Shown: positions 14,892 through 26,474 of the stretch, in pieces
Layout: each line of letters begins with the position of its first letter
Numbering within the stretch: position 1 is the stretch's first letter
Source of the DNA: Candidatus Gottesmanbacteria bacterium
Lineage (GTDB): Bacteria; Patescibacteriota; Microgenomatia; UBA10105; UBA927
Assembly: GCA_016214885.1 (NCBI GenBank)
Contig: JACRMP010000035.1
Coordinates: 1-44,164 of the forward strand
Reading direction: 5' to 3'
DNA: 44,164 nt
Notes under the pieces: generated by a model
Seen by the model: only the letters and a program-made list of their open reading frames with translations
Told to the model about the DNA's origin: nothing
The model's database searches: none
Translations under genes and position numbers: made by a program

Positions 14892-15164
14892 TCACCTTTT
14901 TCGTTTTTCCAGTTCTCTGTACATATCATCCGGGGTGACACCCAAAGCCGCCCACAAAACGACGGAGTGAAACAATAAATCGGTAAACTCCTCAATGCTT
15001 CGCTGTCGGTCAGTGTTTTTGGCGGCGATGACTACTTCGGTCGCTTCCTCACCAATTTTCTGTATTAGCCGGTCGCGGTTTGCCAAGAGGGAGACAACGT
15101 ATGATCCCTCAGGGTTGGTTTCCTGCTGTTTTTTTATCATTGCATAAAGTTCATCAATGGTCAT
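14892..15164 (-). CDS. hisE: Phosphoribosyl-ATP diphosphatase
   Basis: RLIQKIGEEATEVVIAAKN...EFTDLLFHSVVLW; overlaps the hisI stop. Confidence 0.93.
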   Translation of the reverse strand: MTIDELYAMIKKQQETNPEGSYVVSLLANRDRLIQKIGEEATEVVIAAKNTDRQRSIEEFTDLLFHSVVLWAALGVTPDDMYRELEKRKR

Positions 15165-15457
15165 ATATTCTCCTTTCGGTAAAAGCACGATGTATTGCCC
15201 GTGTGACATGTTGCCCCTTTGGGATCCACCCGGATAAGATAGGCATCATTATCACAATCACAGAACATATCTATCACCCGAAGAGTATTACCTGATGTTT
15301 CTCCCTTTTTCCAAAGCCGGTTTTTTGACCGGCTCCAGAACCATACCCGTCGGGTTTGTTTTGTTTTTGCGAGTGCCTCCTCATTCATGTATCCCAGCAT
15401 GAGGACGTCACCGGTTATATTATTCTGGATGACTGCAGGAACAAGGGTAGTTTTCAT
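15161..15457 (-). CDS. hisI: Phosphoribosyl-AMP cyclohydrolase
   Basis: LMLGYMNEEAL, WFWSRSKNRLWKKGETSGN, DCDNDAYLIRVDPKGATCHTG. Confidence 0.95.
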   Translation of the reverse strand: MKTTLVPAVIQNNITGDVLMLGYMNEEALAKTKQTRRVWFWSRSKNRLWKKGETSGNTLRVIDMFCDCDNDAYLIRVDPKGATCHTGNTSCFYRKENI

Positions 15458-16218
15458 ACATCCCTCCGTATAGAAATATTCTGCTCGGACAAATACCGTT
15501 TGAGTTCCGGTATTGATAGGTCTCCGAAGTGGAACAGTGATGCCGCAAGTGCGGCATCTGCTTCGCCTGTTTGGAAAACATCCGCGAAATCCTGCATGGA
15601 TCCCGCGCCGCCCGATGCGATAACTGGTACAGATACTGCCCTGGACACCGTGCGGGTGAGTTCCAGGTTAAATCCTTTTTTGGTTCCGTCCATATCGATA
15701 CTGGTCAGCAATATTTCTCCCGCTCCGCGGCGTACGGCTTCTTTTGCCCAGTCGACGGCAGAGAGGCCCGAATCTAATGTCCCGCCGTTTATGAATGCGT
15801 TCCAGCGGTTAGGAGCGACTTTTTTGGCGTCCAGCGACAATACGACACATTGGCTGCCGAATGCGTTGGCACACTCGGTGATGAGAGCGGGATTTGTTAC
15901 CGCGCCGGTGTTTACGGATACCTTGTCTGCTCCTGCCCGCAGGATCAGCTGCATGTCAGATACGCTTCGTATACCACCGCCCACAGAAAACGGTATATTC
16001 ACTTCTTTGGCTGTTTTTGCCACAACATTCAATAAAATCGGTCTGTTTTTTACCGTAGCGGTAATATCTAGAAATACAAGCTCATCCGCTTCATTGTCGC
16101 TGTATTGTTTGGCAAGTTGCACGGGATCTCCCGCGTCACGGAACGAAACAAACTGAATACCCTTTACTACTTTGCCTTCTGTCATATCAAGACAGGGGAT
16201 AATGCGCTTTGTTGTCAT
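15454..16218 (-). CDS. hisF: Imidazole glycerol phosphate synthase subunit HisF
   Basis: RIIPCLDMTEGKVVKGIQF, PFSVGGGIRS, VIASGGAGSMQDF. Confidence 0.96.
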   Translation of the reverse strand: MTTKRIIPCLDMTEGKVVKGIQFVSFRDAGDPVQLAKQYSDNEADELVFLDITATVKNRPILLNVVAKTAKEVNIPFSVGGGIRSVSDMQLILRAGADKVSVNTGAVTNPALITECANAFGSQCVVLSLDAKKVAPNRWNAFINGGTLDSGLSAVDWAKEAVRRGAGEILLTSIDMDGTKKGFNLELTRTVSRAVSVPVIASGGAGSMQDFADVFQTGEADAALAASLFHFGDLSIPELKRYLSEQNISIRRDV

Positions 16219-16826
16219 AAAATCTCCTTTATAAAATTTGTTAATAATATTCTTCCGGCTGTACTGCTTTTTTCCGGGTGAAACTGTGTCGCGAATATAT
16301 TTTTATAGGCGACGGCGCTGGTAAATGTACAGCCGTATTGTGTGGTGGCCGCTATTATTTCCGGGTCTGTCGGCTCGGGATAGTAGCTGTTCACAAAATA
16401 AAACTCGCTGTTTGGAATGCCGTTAAACAACCGGACGGCTTGCGGGTTTTGTGTACTAACGGTTACCGTATTCCATCCAATCTGCGGCACTTTGTTTTGC
16501 GCCCCGAATTTCACAACTTTCCCTTTGAGTACGCCGAGACACGGAGTATCCGCTTCTTCGCTGTATTCAAAAAGTAACTGCAATCCCAGACAAAATCCGA
16601 TAAACGGTACACCTTGCTGTATCCGGTTCCGGATCACGGTGTCTAAGCCGCGTGCTTTCAGATTTTGCATGCCAACTCCCGCCGCCCCCACTCCGGGCAG
16701 CAGGAGGGTGGCGGCGGACCCGACAACAACAGGATCACTACTTACAGCGCAAGAGACACCGAGCGACTCAAATGTGTTGAGAACGCTCCCTATGTTTCCT
16801 AATCCGTAATCAATGATGGTTATCAT
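16215..16826 (-). CDS. hisH: Imidazole glycerol phosphate synthase subunit HisH
   Basis: IIDYGLGNIGSV, LLLPGVGAAGVGM, IGFCLGLQLLFE, ATQFHPEKS; start trimmed to MITIIDYG. Confidence 0.95.
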   Translation of the reverse strand: MITIIDYGLGNIGSVLNTFESLGVSCAVSSDPVVVGSAATLLLPGVGAAGVGMQNLKARGLDTVIRNRIQQGVPFIGFCLGLQLLFEYSEEADTPCLGVLKGKVVKFGAQNKVPQIGWNTVTVSTQNPQAVRLFNGIPNSEFYFVNSYYPEPTDPEIIAATTQYGCTFTSAVAYKNIFATQFHPEKSSTAGRILLTNFIKEIL

Positions 16827-17413
16827 AATGCTCCTTTGGTTGACGGAATTTGTCCGCCGCTTTTTTTGTCTATCTCGACGGCACGGCGGATTGCCCGTGC
16901 TATCGCTTTCCATATCGCCTCGGCTTTGTGATGATCATTTCTGCCGTTTTCGACTTTTATATACACATTGGCTTTTGCGTTTTGGGCAAAAGCATCCCAA
17001 AAGTCATACACCAGTTCTGTGCTGAAATCTCCGATCCGCTCCCGTGTAAACGGACAGGTTAAGGTGAACGCATAGCGCCCGGAAAAATCTATGGCAACAG
17101 TTGCCAGCGCTTCATCCATGGGCAGAATAAAAAATCCATACCGATTGATGCCGCGTTTATCTCCGAGTGATTTTGCAAATGCTTCACCCAGTACAATGCC
17201 GATATCTTCCACGGTGTGGTGATCGTCAATATAGGTGTCACCGGTAGCCTTCACCGTCAGATCAAATAATCCGTGTTTGGCAAAAAGATCCAACATGTGG
17301 GTGAGAAACCCTATGGGTGTTTCTATCTGGCGTATCCCGGTGCCATCGGGATTGAGCTTAATAGCAATATCGGTTTCTGATGTTTTGCGTGTGACTGTTG
17401 ATATGCGGTTCAT
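16823..17413 (-). CDS. hisB: Imidazoleglycerol-phosphate dehydratase
   Basis: IETPIGFLTHMLDLFAKHGLFDL, DDHHTVEDIGIVLG, GRNDHHKAEAIWKA. Confidence 0.95.
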   Translation of the reverse strand: MNRISTVTRKTSETDIAIKLNPDGTGIRQIETPIGFLTHMLDLFAKHGLFDLTVKATGDTYIDDHHTVEDIGIVLGEAFAKSLGDKRGINRYGFFILPMDEALATVAIDFSGRYAFTLTCPFTRERIGDFSTELVYDFWDAFAQNAKANVYIKVENGRNDHHKAEAIWKAIARAIRRAVEIDKKSGGQIPSTKGAL

Positions 17414-18132
17414 ATAACCTCCTTTAGATTATTTATTGTTGGTATTTGGTTGTCTCCAACTTTTTCGTTACCGACATATATGCTCGGCATGTCTGCCGCT
17501 TTGGCAGCGATTACATCGTTTATTGTGTCACCGATATAAACGGGATAACTCGCATTCATACGCCTGGACGCTTCTAACAGAGGATCAGGAGCAGGTTTTC
17601 CGTTTACCGTATCTTCGAGCGCCACGATATAGTCCATGGGAATATACGTTGGTGTAATACCGAGACGAGTGAGTGAAAATATTGCTTCGTTTTTGGGTCG
17701 CCCGGTAGCAATCCCCAGGCGGTATGACTCCTTAAGATCGGCAAGTAAAGTTTTGTCTATCAGAAGTGATTCGTTGGCGATACAGCCATCATAGGTTTTA
17801 CCGACATATATGGACTGAAAGCGTGTTTTGATACGTTTGTACAGACGGGAGTTTCGCACAGCATCGGTCAGTGGGGAAATATTTTCCGCAAACGCCGATG
17901 GCGAAAAGTTACGCCCCAACAGATCGACAAGTGCATATGATGTATCCCAGTCATTGTTGAATCCGGGAATTGATTTAATGGCGCTAATTGTTTCCGGTGT
18001 TACCGTAACTTTCATATTCTTAGATTCCAGCAGTATAGACGCCACTGTCCGGCATGTGGCTTCGGTAAAAGCTTCGTTCCCGACGAGCACGCCATCTATA
18101 TCGAAAATAATTGCATCAATATTTGGTTTCAT
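17410..18132 (-). CDS. HAD-superfamily hydrolase, candidate histidinol-phosphatase
   Basis: IIFDIDGVLVGNE, GIATGRPK, VYIGDTINDVIAAKAA. The position between hisC and hisB suggests the role. Confidence 0.8.
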   Translation of the reverse strand: MKPNIDAIIFDIDGVLVGNEAFTEATCRTVASILLESKNMKVTVTPETISAIKSIPGFNNDWDTSYALVDLLGRNFSPSAFAENISPLTDAVRNSRLYKRIKTRFQSIYVGKTYDGCIANESLLIDKTLLADLKESYRLGIATGRPKNEAIFSLTRLGITPTYIPMDYIVALEDTVNGKPAPDPLLEASRRMNASYPVYIGDTINDVIAAKAADMPSIYVGNEKVGDNQIPTINNLKEVI

Positions 18133-19184
18133 AGAATTTCCTCCAGAACTTTTATGAGTGTGGTGTTTTCCTTCGGGCTTCTGACGGTTATGCGGATACA
18201 GCCATTGAGATACGGTTTTGTGCTGCGGTCGCGCACGATAACGCCTCTTGCGGCCAGCTTGGCGGCAACCGAGCTGGCTCGGTTGCCCACATCCACGAGC
18301 AGGAAGTTTGCTTCCGACGGATACGCAGATAACCCAAGAGTTCTAAGTGCTTTGGCAAGTTTTTTCCGCTCTGTTTTAATCATCAGGATTTGTTTTTCTA
18401 TCCATGGTTGGTCATTATTGAGTACTTGCTCCGCAAGGTTTGCAGAGAGAGTACTGACTCCCATGGGGAACCGGATAGCGTCAAAGACCCTGGAGAGTGT
18501 GGGGTTAGCGATTAGATATCCGATGCGGGCTCCTGCAAGACCTGCAAATTTTGAAAATGTTTTGAGAACGATAAGGTTATTGTATTTCTTCGTAAGCGGA
18601 ACAACTGTTTTTCCATAAAATTCGCCGTATGCTTCATCTACTACGACAGCGCAGGATGACCGCGAGACGATGTCGGTGACGGTAAGTCGCGGGATGACGG
18701 AGCCGGTCGGATTATTGGGATTGACGAGAAAAATAAGCTTCGTCCGTAGTTTTTTTGACGCACGGATAATTGCAGCAGCATCGACGGCAAACGTTTTTGG
18801 AGCAAGCGGAATTTCATACACTATGCCGCGGTTGATTTGACACTGGATAGTGAACATTTCATACGTCGGAGGTGTGACGACGAACCTGTCGCCGGGATCT
18901 AAGAAAGTTTTAGCCAGTATATCGATTGCTTCATCCCCGCTGTTTGTCACCGTAATCATTTCTTCGGGTACACGTTCGTATGCCGCAATCTGCGTTTTCA
19001 GCCTTCGGTATGCAGGATCACTGTATTCATTGATTGAGACAAGACCCTTGATCGTCCGTTTGATGGACGGCGGAGGACTGGGAAGCGTATTCGTGTCAAA
19101 CCGCAGACAGTTTTTTACAGCATACGTCTCCCATTGATACGGGCGGGCAATTTGTCCTATTTGTGATAGCTTAATTGCTTTCAT
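18129..19184 (-). CDS. hisC: Histidinol-phosphate aminotransferase
   Basis: LIFLVNPNNPTGSVI, VVDEAYGEFYG, LKTFSKFAGLAGARIGY. Confidence 0.93.
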   Translation of the reverse strand: MKAIKLSQIGQIARPYQWETYAVKNCLRFDTNTLPSPPPSIKRTIKGLVSINEYSDPAYRRLKTQIAAYERVPEEMITVTNSGDEAIDILAKTFLDPGDRFVVTPPTYEMFTIQCQINRGIVYEIPLAPKTFAVDAAAIIRASKKLRTKLIFLVNPNNPTGSVIPRLTVTDIVSRSSCAVVVDEAYGEFYGKTVVPLTKKYNNLIVLKTFSKFAGLAGARIGYLIANPTLSRVFDAIRFPMGVSTLSANLAEQVLNNDQPWIEKQILMIKTERKKLAKALRTLGLSAYPSEANFLLVDVGNRASSVAAKLAARGVIVRDRSTKPYLNGCIRITVRSPKENTTLIKVLEEIL

Positions 19185-20487
19185 AAATACCTCTTTTTTT
19201 CGCAAACCTGATCGACACGGAATTTTTGTGCGCGGGCAACTGTTCTGCTTCGGCAATAACCTCAATAGTTTTCCGTATTTTTAGTAATCCGTTTTTTGTG
19301 CATTTCTGCACTTGCATCCATTTGCCGTATGCATCCACTCCCAGCGGGGGATACATTTTGGCCATGCCGCCCGTGGGCAGGACGTGATTGGCTCCCGTCG
19401 CATAATCTCCCGCAGCTTTTGCCGTCCAATCACCCAGAAATACTGATCCTGCATTTTGGATACGTCGGGCGACCGAATCCGGATCTCTGGTCATTATTTC
19501 CAAGTGTTCCGGCGCGTAGCCATTGGTAAACGCAATTGCATCACTCATCGAATCAGCAAGGGCAATCAGCCCGAATGCCTCCAAAGATTTCGCCGCGCGG
19601 TCAGCAGTTGTAAGTCCGGGCAGCTGTTTTTGAATTTCTGTAAGCGTCTGACGAGCAATTTGCCGTGATGTGGTTATCAGTACACACGCGGAATCCTCTC
19701 CGTGTTCACCGTCCGCCAGAAGATCCGCCGCGATGAATGCGGGGTTCGCCGATTCATCCGCGATGATAAATATTTCCGAAGGACCCGCTGGCATGTCGAT
19801 GCTCACCGTATTGAGCGCCAGCATTTTGGCGGCAGTCACCGATGCATTTCCCGCGCCGAATATCTTGCACACGGCAGGAATGGTTCTGGTGCCGTAGGTC
19901 ATTGCTGCAATGGCTTCAGCGCCGCCTACTTTAAATATATCGGTGAGCCCTATCATATTGGCGGCAATAAGAGTTGCAGGGGGGATTTTTCCGTTGTCTC
20001 GCGGAGGGGAGCAGAGTACGATATCACGGCATCCGGCAATCTGAGCCGGTATAGCGGTCATCAGTACCGATGACGGGTAAACCGCTTTTCCTCCGGGGAT
20101 ATAGAGACCGACTTTTTCTATCGCGCGCCATTCCCGCCAAACAGTGATGCCGGGTTCTGTCTGAACAACGGTATCTTTCCGTTTCGGTAGCTGAGCGCTT
20201 TGTGCGGCAGTGATATTTTTTATCATTTGTTTTAATGCCGTAATGGTTTCGCCTGATACGAGCGAGTATGCTTCGGTTATTTCCCGGCGGGTAACAGCGA
20301 TGGATCCGTACGCGTTTCTGCCGTAGCGCTTGGTGTATTTGTCAGAGAGAACTTTGTCTCCGAGCCGCCGCACGGAATCCATAACTTGAGCTACCCGGGG
20401 GAGGATTGTCTGATCCATTCCCCGGCTGCGTGCAAATATCCGCAGGTAATCGTTCTTTCTGATGGCGGAAAGTTTTGTAATTTTCAT
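19171..20487 (-). CDS. hisD: Histidinol dehydrogenase
   Basis: [47 protein letters not shown]. Confidence 0.95.
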
Positions 20488-20491
20488 ATAA

Positions 20492-21349
20492 TTAAGAAAT
20501 AATTTTTTCGACCGGCAGCATATAAATATTTTTTGCCCCTAAATCTTTCATACGGTCAAAAACAGTCCAGAACATATCTTCTTTGATGACGCCGTTTACC
20601 GACAGGCGTTGCCCGGGGAGCGCTGTCATGACAAGGTTGGGAAGTAGTTTTGTGAGTCTCGGCGCTGATGTATCCGGAACGGTGAGACTGATGTATTTAT
20701 AGTTTTTTGCGGAAAGAACTGATGTAAACCGGGTGATGAGTTGGCGCAGAACCGGATTTTTTTCGGTGTCAGCGCCGAGTTTTTCATTTGCTATAAGTAC
20801 GGCTTCCGATCTGTATATGGGGGTAAGCAGCCGCAGATCGTTCATGGCGAGTGTGCTGCCGGTAGATACAAGATCCACAATTGCCGCCGCGAGCCCCAGT
20901 GACGGTGCAATTTCTACAGATCCCTTAATCGTGATTGTTTCTACTTTCACGCCGTATTTTTGAAAAAATTGTTGGGTTGAGCGGGGATAGGAGGTCGCGA
21001 TCGTTTTGCCGTTCAGCCCGCTTATGTCATTAATGGGGGACTCCTTGGGTACGGAAAGCGCTAGTGAACAATATCCATAGCGGAGGTTTAAGAGTTTTTT
21101 CACCTTCGGCCGTTCTTCGTTGAGTATATTCTGTCCGAGAATTCCCAGATCAACGGCACCGCTTTCCACGAGGCGGGGAATGTCATCATCCCGCACGTAC
21201 AGTATTTCGACAGGCATATTCCTGCAGGCGGAGAATAGCTTCCTGCTGTAGCTTTCGAACTCAAGTCCGGAAGCACGCAAAAACCCGAGCGTATTTTCCG
21301 TGAGACGCCCGTTTTTCTGCACCGCCAGTTTTAGGTTATTTTTATTCAT
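20492..21349 (-). CDS. hisG: ATP phosphoribosyltransferase, long form with C-terminal regulatory domain
   Basis: LAVQKNGRLTENTLGFL, ATSYPRSTQQFFQ, C-terminal SVNGVIKEDMFWTVFDRMKDLGAKNIYMLPVEKII. Confidence 0.94.
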   Translation of the reverse strand: MNKNNLKLAVQKNGRLTENTLGFLRASGLEFESYSRKLFSACRNMPVEILYVRDDDIPRLVESGAVDLGILGQNILNEERPKVKKLLNLRYGYCSLALSVPKESPINDISGLNGKTIATSYPRSTQQFFQKYGVKVETITIKGSVEIAPSLGLAAAIVDLVSTGSTLAMNDLRLLTPIYRSEAVLIANEKLGADTEKNPVLRQLITRFTSVLSAKNYKYISLTVPDTSAPRLTKLLPNLVMTALPGQRLSVNGVIKEDMFWTVFDRMKDLGAKNIYMLPVEKIIS

Positions 21350-21362
21350 ATGTAATTCCTCT

Positions 21363-21438
21363 TGGGGTGGCTGACGGGTAACGCTCCCGCTCCATCTTGC
21401 TCCACAGGCAAGCGCTCTCCTTTTGAGCTACAGCCACC
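21363..21438 (-). tRNA. tRNA-His(GTG) with G-1, C73 and encoded CCA
   Basis: Minus strand GGTGGCTGTAGCTCAAAAGGAGAGCGCTTGCCTGTGGAGCAAGATGGAGCGGGAGCGTTACCCGTCAGCCACCCCA. Anticodon stem CTTGC/GCAAG, loop CTGTGGA. Confidence 0.93.
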
Positions 21439-21497
21439 AAAAAACCTCCCGTTCGTTACGCACCACGTAAAAAACGTGCTACGTAAGGAACGAGAGG
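21439..21497 (-). terminator. Intrinsic terminator of the T-box leader
   Basis: CCTCTCGTTCCTTACGTAGCACGT-TTTTT-ACGTGGTGCGTAACGAACGGGAGG-TTTTTT: 24-position stem with 2 wobbles and 2 mismatches, then 6 U. Confidence 0.9.
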
Positions 21498-21680
21498 CAT
21501 AAAAAAAAGACCTCCCGCGGTCCCATCCTTAGTTCCTAAAGGTGTTTCTCCTTCAGGCTCTTAGGCCGACTCCGCTTGGCGACATCGACTGTTGGATATG
21601 ACGGTTCAACCTCCGGAAGGCATTTTGACCTTCAGCTCGTGGATCGTGACTCCACTGTTTGCGCTTTTCTATTAACTTGT
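21439..21680 (-). promoter_or_regulatory. T-box riboswitch leader of the histidine operon
   Basis: T-box core AAGGATGGGACCGCGG. Stem III-like CCTGAAGG-agaaaca-CCTTTAGG. Antiterminator UAAGGA/UCCUUA + 7-nt bulge UGGGACC + GCGGGAGG/CCUCUCGU. Competing terminator. Confidence 0.88.
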
Positions 21681-21687
21681 ACACGAT

Positions 21688-21715
21688 ATAGTACTACAAA
21701 TTCCGAGAATGTCAA
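21688..21715 (-). promoter_or_regulatory. Promoter of the his operon / T-box leader
   Basis: TTGACA (21715-21710), 16-nt spacer, TACTAT (21693-21688). Confidence 0.75.
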
Positions 21716-21732
21716 ATTACCAACGATTTGTA

Positions 21733-26300: not shown

Positions 26301-26396
26301 TTAATAAACAAATATTGCCGAGGCTCGCCTCGACTCGCAAATACGGAGTCGACGCGAGGCGGGTGACGGAGAATTAATAAACAAATATTGCCGAGG
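26301..26396. repeat. 23-bp direct repeat flanking a 50-bp palindromic insert
   Basis: TTAATAAACAAATATTGCCGAGG at 26301-26323 and 26374-26396. Insert ctcgcCTCGACTCgcaaatacgGAGTCGacGCGAGGCGGGTGACGGAGAA. Confidence 0.9.
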
Positions 26397-26474
26397 TGGC
26401 GGAATGGCAGACGCTCAGGTCTCAAAAACCTGTGAGCATAATAGCTCGTGGAGGTTCGACTCCTCTCCTCGGCA
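26390..26474 (+). tRNA. tRNA-Leu(CAA)
   Basis: GCCGAGG/CCTCGGC acceptor, loop CTCAAAA with CAA anticodon, variable arm TGAGCATAATAGCTCGT, TTCGACT T-loop; no encoded CCA. Confidence 0.93.

Follow-up and report, generated by a model that had tools for sequence, protein, structure and literature searches.

A transcription-terminating histidine T-box with an ultrashort Stem I, predicted ahead of a tRNA-His gene and the his operon in a Microgenomates-type Patescibacterium

T-boxes are known mainly from Firmicutes and Actinobacteria, and a few are found in Chloroflexi, Deinococcus and Proteobacteria (PMC2494555); in the open literature we found no paper which joins T-boxes with the CPR/Patescibacteria. 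The element presented here lies on the minus strand (21439–21716) of a window of 44,164 nucleotides, which is the whole stretch of DNA that was analysed. Judged by its sequence, it is a histidine T-box of the transcription-terminating kind, and its host is a Patescibacterium of Microgenomates type. With the terminator-type T-boxes of class I, including the his T-boxes of Firmicutes (PMC9413887), it shares the terminator output, the UGGNACC bulge and the predicted control of a his operon and an aminoacyl-tRNA synthetase. However, it has no long Stem I, elbow-binding module or internal specifier loop: Stem I ends in a 7-nt specifier loop, and the distal double T-loop (elbow-binding) module of classes I and II is absent. 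This module of Stem I is described as generally needed, or essential, in terminator-type T-boxes (PMC7583486), so that an ultrashort Stem I combined with terminator control runs against that rule.

The class III T-boxes (Nocardia farcinica ileS type; PMC10482949) also have a short Stem I that lacks the elbow-binding module, a specifier in the apical loop, a Stem IIA/B pseudoknot and a UGGN discriminator domain. The differences concern the specifier loop (7 nt in the window as opposed to 5–6 nt in class III, PMC10482949, with 6 nt in the Arg leaders L175, L186 and L187), the output (a terminator here, mostly translation initiation in class III), the architecture (the window Stem II has no S-turn sequence, and there is an additional stem after the pseudoknot) and the specificities (His, Arg, Pro, Cys and Trp here). 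Based on its specifier, bulge and switch we regard the window element as a T-box, but it appears to fit none of the four published classes; we leave it without a class label because a class III-like Stem I is found together with a 7-nt loop, no S-turn sequence, an extra stem and a terminator output. The Rfam T-box model RF00230, which the initial annotation had named as a check on the leader, does not match the window element, whether the gathering score or E ≤ 10 is taken as the limit. The close homologues are matched by the same model from end to end with E-values of 1e-6 to 1e-9 (7e-7 and 1.7e-6 among them) and 28.8–57 bits, none of which reaches the gathering score of 93. Such end-to-end alignments at E 1e-6 make homology with the RF00230 family likely. 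Matches of the window to SNORD112 and MIR3440 score far under gathering and are regarded as chance.

The leader is preceded by a −35 box TTGACA (21710–21715) and a −10 box TACTAT (21688–21693), which are separated by 16 nt as read directly from the minus strand; similar TTGACA/TATAAT-like boxes are found upstream of the leaders of relatives. The antiterminator (21485–21530) consists of AAGGA/UCCUU and GCGGGAGG/CCUCUCGU around the T-box bulge UGGGACC (21519–21525), the UGGG of which is complementary to C73-C-C-A. Its 5′ side is made of TAAGGA (21531–21526), the bulge and GCGGGAGG (21518–21511), and the competing strand of CCTCTCGT (21497–21490) and TCCTTA (21489–21484). The intrinsic terminator (21439–21497) comprises a hairpin (21497–21445) and a U-run of six (21444–21439); the strand 21497–21485 is common to antiterminator and terminator, which makes the two structures mutually exclusive. 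The terminator hairpin has a folding energy of −34.5 kcal/mol, compared with −11.8 ± 2.6 kcal/mol for composition shuffles (0 of 500 equal it). For the leader with its terminator the folding energy is −92 kcal/mol (z = −4.75), a value equalled by none of 200 dinucleotide shuffles, and when truncated before the 3′ half of the terminator the leader folds into the antiterminator pairing. All elements described in the initial annotation, the promoter boxes, the pairing strands and the T6 run included, lie where it had placed them.

Upstream of the switch, further structural elements are found on the same strand. The Stem I region (21634–21665) has a closing helix AGC/GCU around the hairpin GUGGA[GUCACGA]UCCAC (21655–21639), and the specifier codon CAC for His (21646–21648) is located in the 7-nt apical loop GUCACGA. 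Three specifier candidates had been listed originally, and the first of them, this CAC, is the correct one, as the codon varies with the downstream gene. What the initial annotation had called a non-canonical Stem I is in fact a short hairpin whose apical loop holds the specifier. As to a kink-turn at the Stem I base, the 3′-side GAG is conserved in most leaders, while the 5′-side UGA is not seen. Stem II (21617–21632) is the hairpin AAGGU[CAAAAU]GCCUU; on inspection of the sequence, the S-turn signature AGUA/GAA is absent from it (loop CAAAAU). It is followed by an H-type pseudoknot (21591–21616; (C)CGG/CCG(U) with GUUG/CAAC), which occupies the place of Stem IIA/B, and by the extra stem GUCGAUGUC/GGAGUCGGC (21565–21589) with a conserved UGU opposite (G/A)AG. 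Stem III (21535–21557) is CCUGAAGG/CCUUUAGG, described earlier as CCTGAAGG/CCTTTAGG.

The leaders of relatives were gathered by DNA similarity and by a HisG protein search. The named contigs with a related hisG come from Levybacteria, Daviesbacteria and Gottesmanbacteria, Microgenomates lineages of the CPR, which bears out the original assignment of the DNA to a CPR-type genome. In a MAFFT alignment of 14 leaders, built without structure information, pairing is seen in 91.4% of the cells and double-sided changes in 23 of 50 pairs, and neither value is reached in 500 shuffles; moving the partners by 1–3 columns lowers the pairing from 91% to 32–52%. Looking at each element separately in these 14 leaders, the two helices of Stem I have 97.6% and 100% of cells paired, with changes on both sides in three of the five hairpin pairs; all five pairs of Stem II and all eight of Stem III change on both sides; both helices of the pseudoknot vary in a compensatory way and pair in 91% and 85.5% of cells; and the extra stem pairs in 88%, with both-side changes in three pairs. 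This alignment supports one fold, predicted to contain the AGC/GCU helix, the specifier hairpin, Stem II, the pseudoknot, the extra stem, Stem III and the antiterminator. The antiterminator is almost invariant among the 14 leaders, and a near-invariant block, AAGGATGGGACCGCGGGAGG, is seen among related leaders. Covariation is found again among 90 distinct rows collected with a covariance model of the leader, where compensatory changes of the antiterminator also appear, in an alignment which was fitted to the structure and so leans towards it. As the relatives share descent, they are not independent witnesses.

This covariance model, the E-values of which are rough, matches 112 of 374 genomes of the class and also further classes of the phylum. 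T-boxes are thus common in one class of Patescibacteria, where at least the specificities His, Arg, Pro, Cys and Trp occur, and they form a compact switch family which is apparently undescribed. The specifier varies with the downstream gene: hisG and hisS are found behind CAC leaders, argH and argF (ornithine carbamoyltransferase) behind CGC, proS, proB (glutamate 5-kinase) and ornithine cyclodeaminase behind CCC, a cysteine synthase/cystathionine beta-synthase-like gene behind UGC, and trpE, or in the source genome a trpB-like gene, behind UGG. The family also gives specificities to numerous poorly annotated genes in uncultured bacteria. Four His T-boxes (L136, L148, L163 and L190) lie upstream of M20-family peptidases, which might liberate histidine from peptides.

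C73 is a feature peculiar to tRNA-His, and for this reason the agreement between specifier and bulge is the most telling evidence. All 52 CAC leaders with a readable bulge have UGGG, compared with 0 of about 27 leaders with other specifiers, which carry UGGC, UGGU or, in the Cys leader, UGGA (Fisher p about 1e-21, a value which ignores shared descent). Leaders of several specificities other than His show the same trend, and the discriminators read in the source genome (His C, Cys U, Pro A, Trp G, Arg A or G) fit the bulge bases. The original reading of the bulge base as a G matching C73 is thereby strengthened, and so, by covariation and by the agreement of the specifier with both gene and UGGN, is the claim of a His-specific T-box in a CPR genome.

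Concerning the downstream region, the initial annotation had recognised the T-box core; the tRNA-His gene behind the terminator had escaped it and the his operon had not been named. The tRNA-His (21366–21438, minus strand) has the anticodon GUG, an encoded G-1, C73, a CCA at 21365–21363 and the T-loop AGCGUUA, and it scores 52 bits with RF00005 and 83.6 bits with a tRNA-His model of our own, for which E-values are rough. Its start at 21438 directly abuts the end of the terminator U-run at 21439, and the start of hisG is 16 nt beyond it. ARAGORN did not detect a tRNA at 21366–21438, because of the AGCGUUA T-loop. The gene order which follows is hisG-D-C-HAD-B-H-F-E and then hisS, all on the minus strand. 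Model hits above cut-off are found for hisG (20492–21349, TIGR00070), hisD (19171–20487, TIGR00069), hisC (18129–19211, TIGR01141), hisB (16823–17413, NF002111), hisH (16215–16826, TIGR01855), hisF (15454–16218, TIGR00735) and hisE (14892–15164, TIGR03188). The HAD-family hydrolase between hisC and hisB (17410–18132; TIGR01548, 98 bits, below cut-off) is a candidate for the histidinol-phosphate phosphatase step. The only full hisS found in the genome (13728–14841) matches TIGR00442 with 272 bits, plus 42 bits for a C-terminal stretch; it is in two frames, with a break at about 13870 between the catalytic and C-terminal parts, which is either an assembly error or real. From gene order, strand and spacing we infer cotranscription from tRNA-His to hisS, in which case one switch would govern the sensor tRNA, the synthesis of the amino acid and the charging enzyme.

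As the tRNA-His gene follows the terminator, the switch would control the tRNA it senses. The GUG anticodon of uncharged tRNA-His would pair with CAC in the loop of the ultrashort Stem I, and the UGGG of the antiterminator bulge with the free C73-C-C-A end of the tRNA; the antiterminator would thereby be stabilised and CCUCUCGUUCCUU kept from the terminator, so that RNA polymerase would read into tRNA-His, hisG-D-C-HAD-B-H-F-E and hisS. With charged tRNA-His the 3′ end could not dock and the terminator would form. Beyond the base complementarities, we infer tRNA binding, sensitivity to charging and read-through by analogy, from the T-box literature. Since the operon carries the sensed tRNA, read-through would feed back on the sensor: the feedback would be positive during histidine shortage and would end when freshly made HisRS and histidine charge the tRNA pool. 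The prediction is that the additional sensed tRNA from read-through prolongs the on-state while histidine is short. The linkage therefore opens the question of whether a tRNA pool feeds back on its own switch; a search of the open literature, which was not exhaustive, gave no description of a T-box linked to the gene for its own sensed tRNA.

A tRNA-His gene is found within about 400 nt after 29 of 58 CAC leaders, and behind the Arg leader L187 (loop UCGCAA) a tRNA-Arg with the anticodon GCG follows, ahead of an unassigned gene; the linkage is therefore recurrent and specific. With the tRNA-His model, a second tRNA-His is found elsewhere in 22 of the 29 genomes with a linked copy, and the ten genomes of this set that lack a linked copy have a single tRNA-His each. 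In seven genomes, one of which is 98% complete, the linked copy is the only one seen; it may be the sole tRNA-His of some species, and incomplete assemblies may also explain this. Sequences resembling the 5′ part of tRNA-His are found past the terminator in L116 and L148 and are possibly decayed linked copies.

Based on specifier, bulge, fold and gene context, the element is very probably a His T-box riboswitch which would act by transcription termination upstream of tRNA-His, the his operon and hisS. Regulation by a leader-peptide attenuator would also place a terminator/antiterminator pair ahead of a his operon, and his attenuators are known in other bacteria (PMC9413887); direct reading of the leader, however, gives no run of His codons, and attenuation does not predict a joint change of specifier, bulge base and downstream amino acid, which makes this explanation extremely improbable. 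The linked tRNA could be a regulatory mimic outside translation, an operator or decoy bound for example by HisRS near the hisG start. The linked gene being a second copy in most genomes would agree with this, as would the D-loop and T-loop of the window copy, both of which are off consensus, but in most linked copies the loops are canonical, and a perfect 8-bp acceptor with G-1:C73, together with CCA, is found in the window copy. Also, the T-loop AGC(G/A)UUA occurs in the sole tRNA-His found in other genomes, including the one-contig genome G067, where it lies inside a tRNA cluster. The unusual loops were accordingly rejected as the mark of a decoy, and we consider a mimic unlikely.

A further explanation, less likely than not, accepts the T-box and takes the linked tRNA mainly as a processing device or a fortuitous neighbour with no special part in sensing: cuts by RNase P and at the 3′ end would leave a short-leader or leaderless mRNA. 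The spacing behind the tRNA speaks for it, as the next start codon is exactly 3 nt past C73 in 9 of the 29 linked loci, ahead of various genes (L104, L110, L119, L099, L126, L141, L147, L159 and L192), and 4 nt past it in two more, which suggests short-leader mRNAs from tRNA 3′ processing; in the remaining loci, including the window, the distance is at least 10 nt, and this weighs against a general processing role. Similarly, in a same-genus relative (L057/G001:C4) the tRNA-His directly precedes hisG although no T-box match is found, so that the junction of tRNA and hisG seems to outlive the switch. On the other hand, His leaders are followed by tRNA-His and the Arg leader by tRNA-Arg, not by any tRNA. 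The most inclusive reading, to which we give roughly even chances, is that the T-box governs its own sensed tRNA, with a dedicated second tRNA-His (once a tRNA-Arg) as first cistron of an autogenous, possibly hysteretic circuit, that tRNA excision may leave an mRNA starting about 3 nt before the start codon in many loci, and that ultrashort Stem I and terminator output together define a new T-box class.

Some additional observations were made on tRNAs and T-boxes in these genomes. The T-loop AGC(G/A)UUA in place of the UUC type (window, L210, L262 and L057), often with a D-loop lacking GG, is found in 11 of 280 genomes of the class and in some of them belongs to the only tRNA-His found; the usual elbow contact seems to be absent from this working tRNA-His. 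The window also contains a tRNA-Leu (CAA) on the plus strand (26390–26474). The source genome has other T-boxes below the Rfam gathering score, the genes of which were named by eye: L084 (aspartyl-tRNA synthetase-like), L082 (a metG-like/proS-like pair), L090 (argH-like, with the loop codon CGA) and L093 (trpB-like, UGG). Downstream of a fuller-length T-box with a long Stem I in the same genome, L080 (G000:C2:17926-18458; RF00230 87.5 bits, below gathering), lies an odd tRNA-like gene (ARAGORN: Asn, GUU; 42 bits), ahead of a methyltransferase-like gene, and part of the region before this tRNA-like gene is duplicated.
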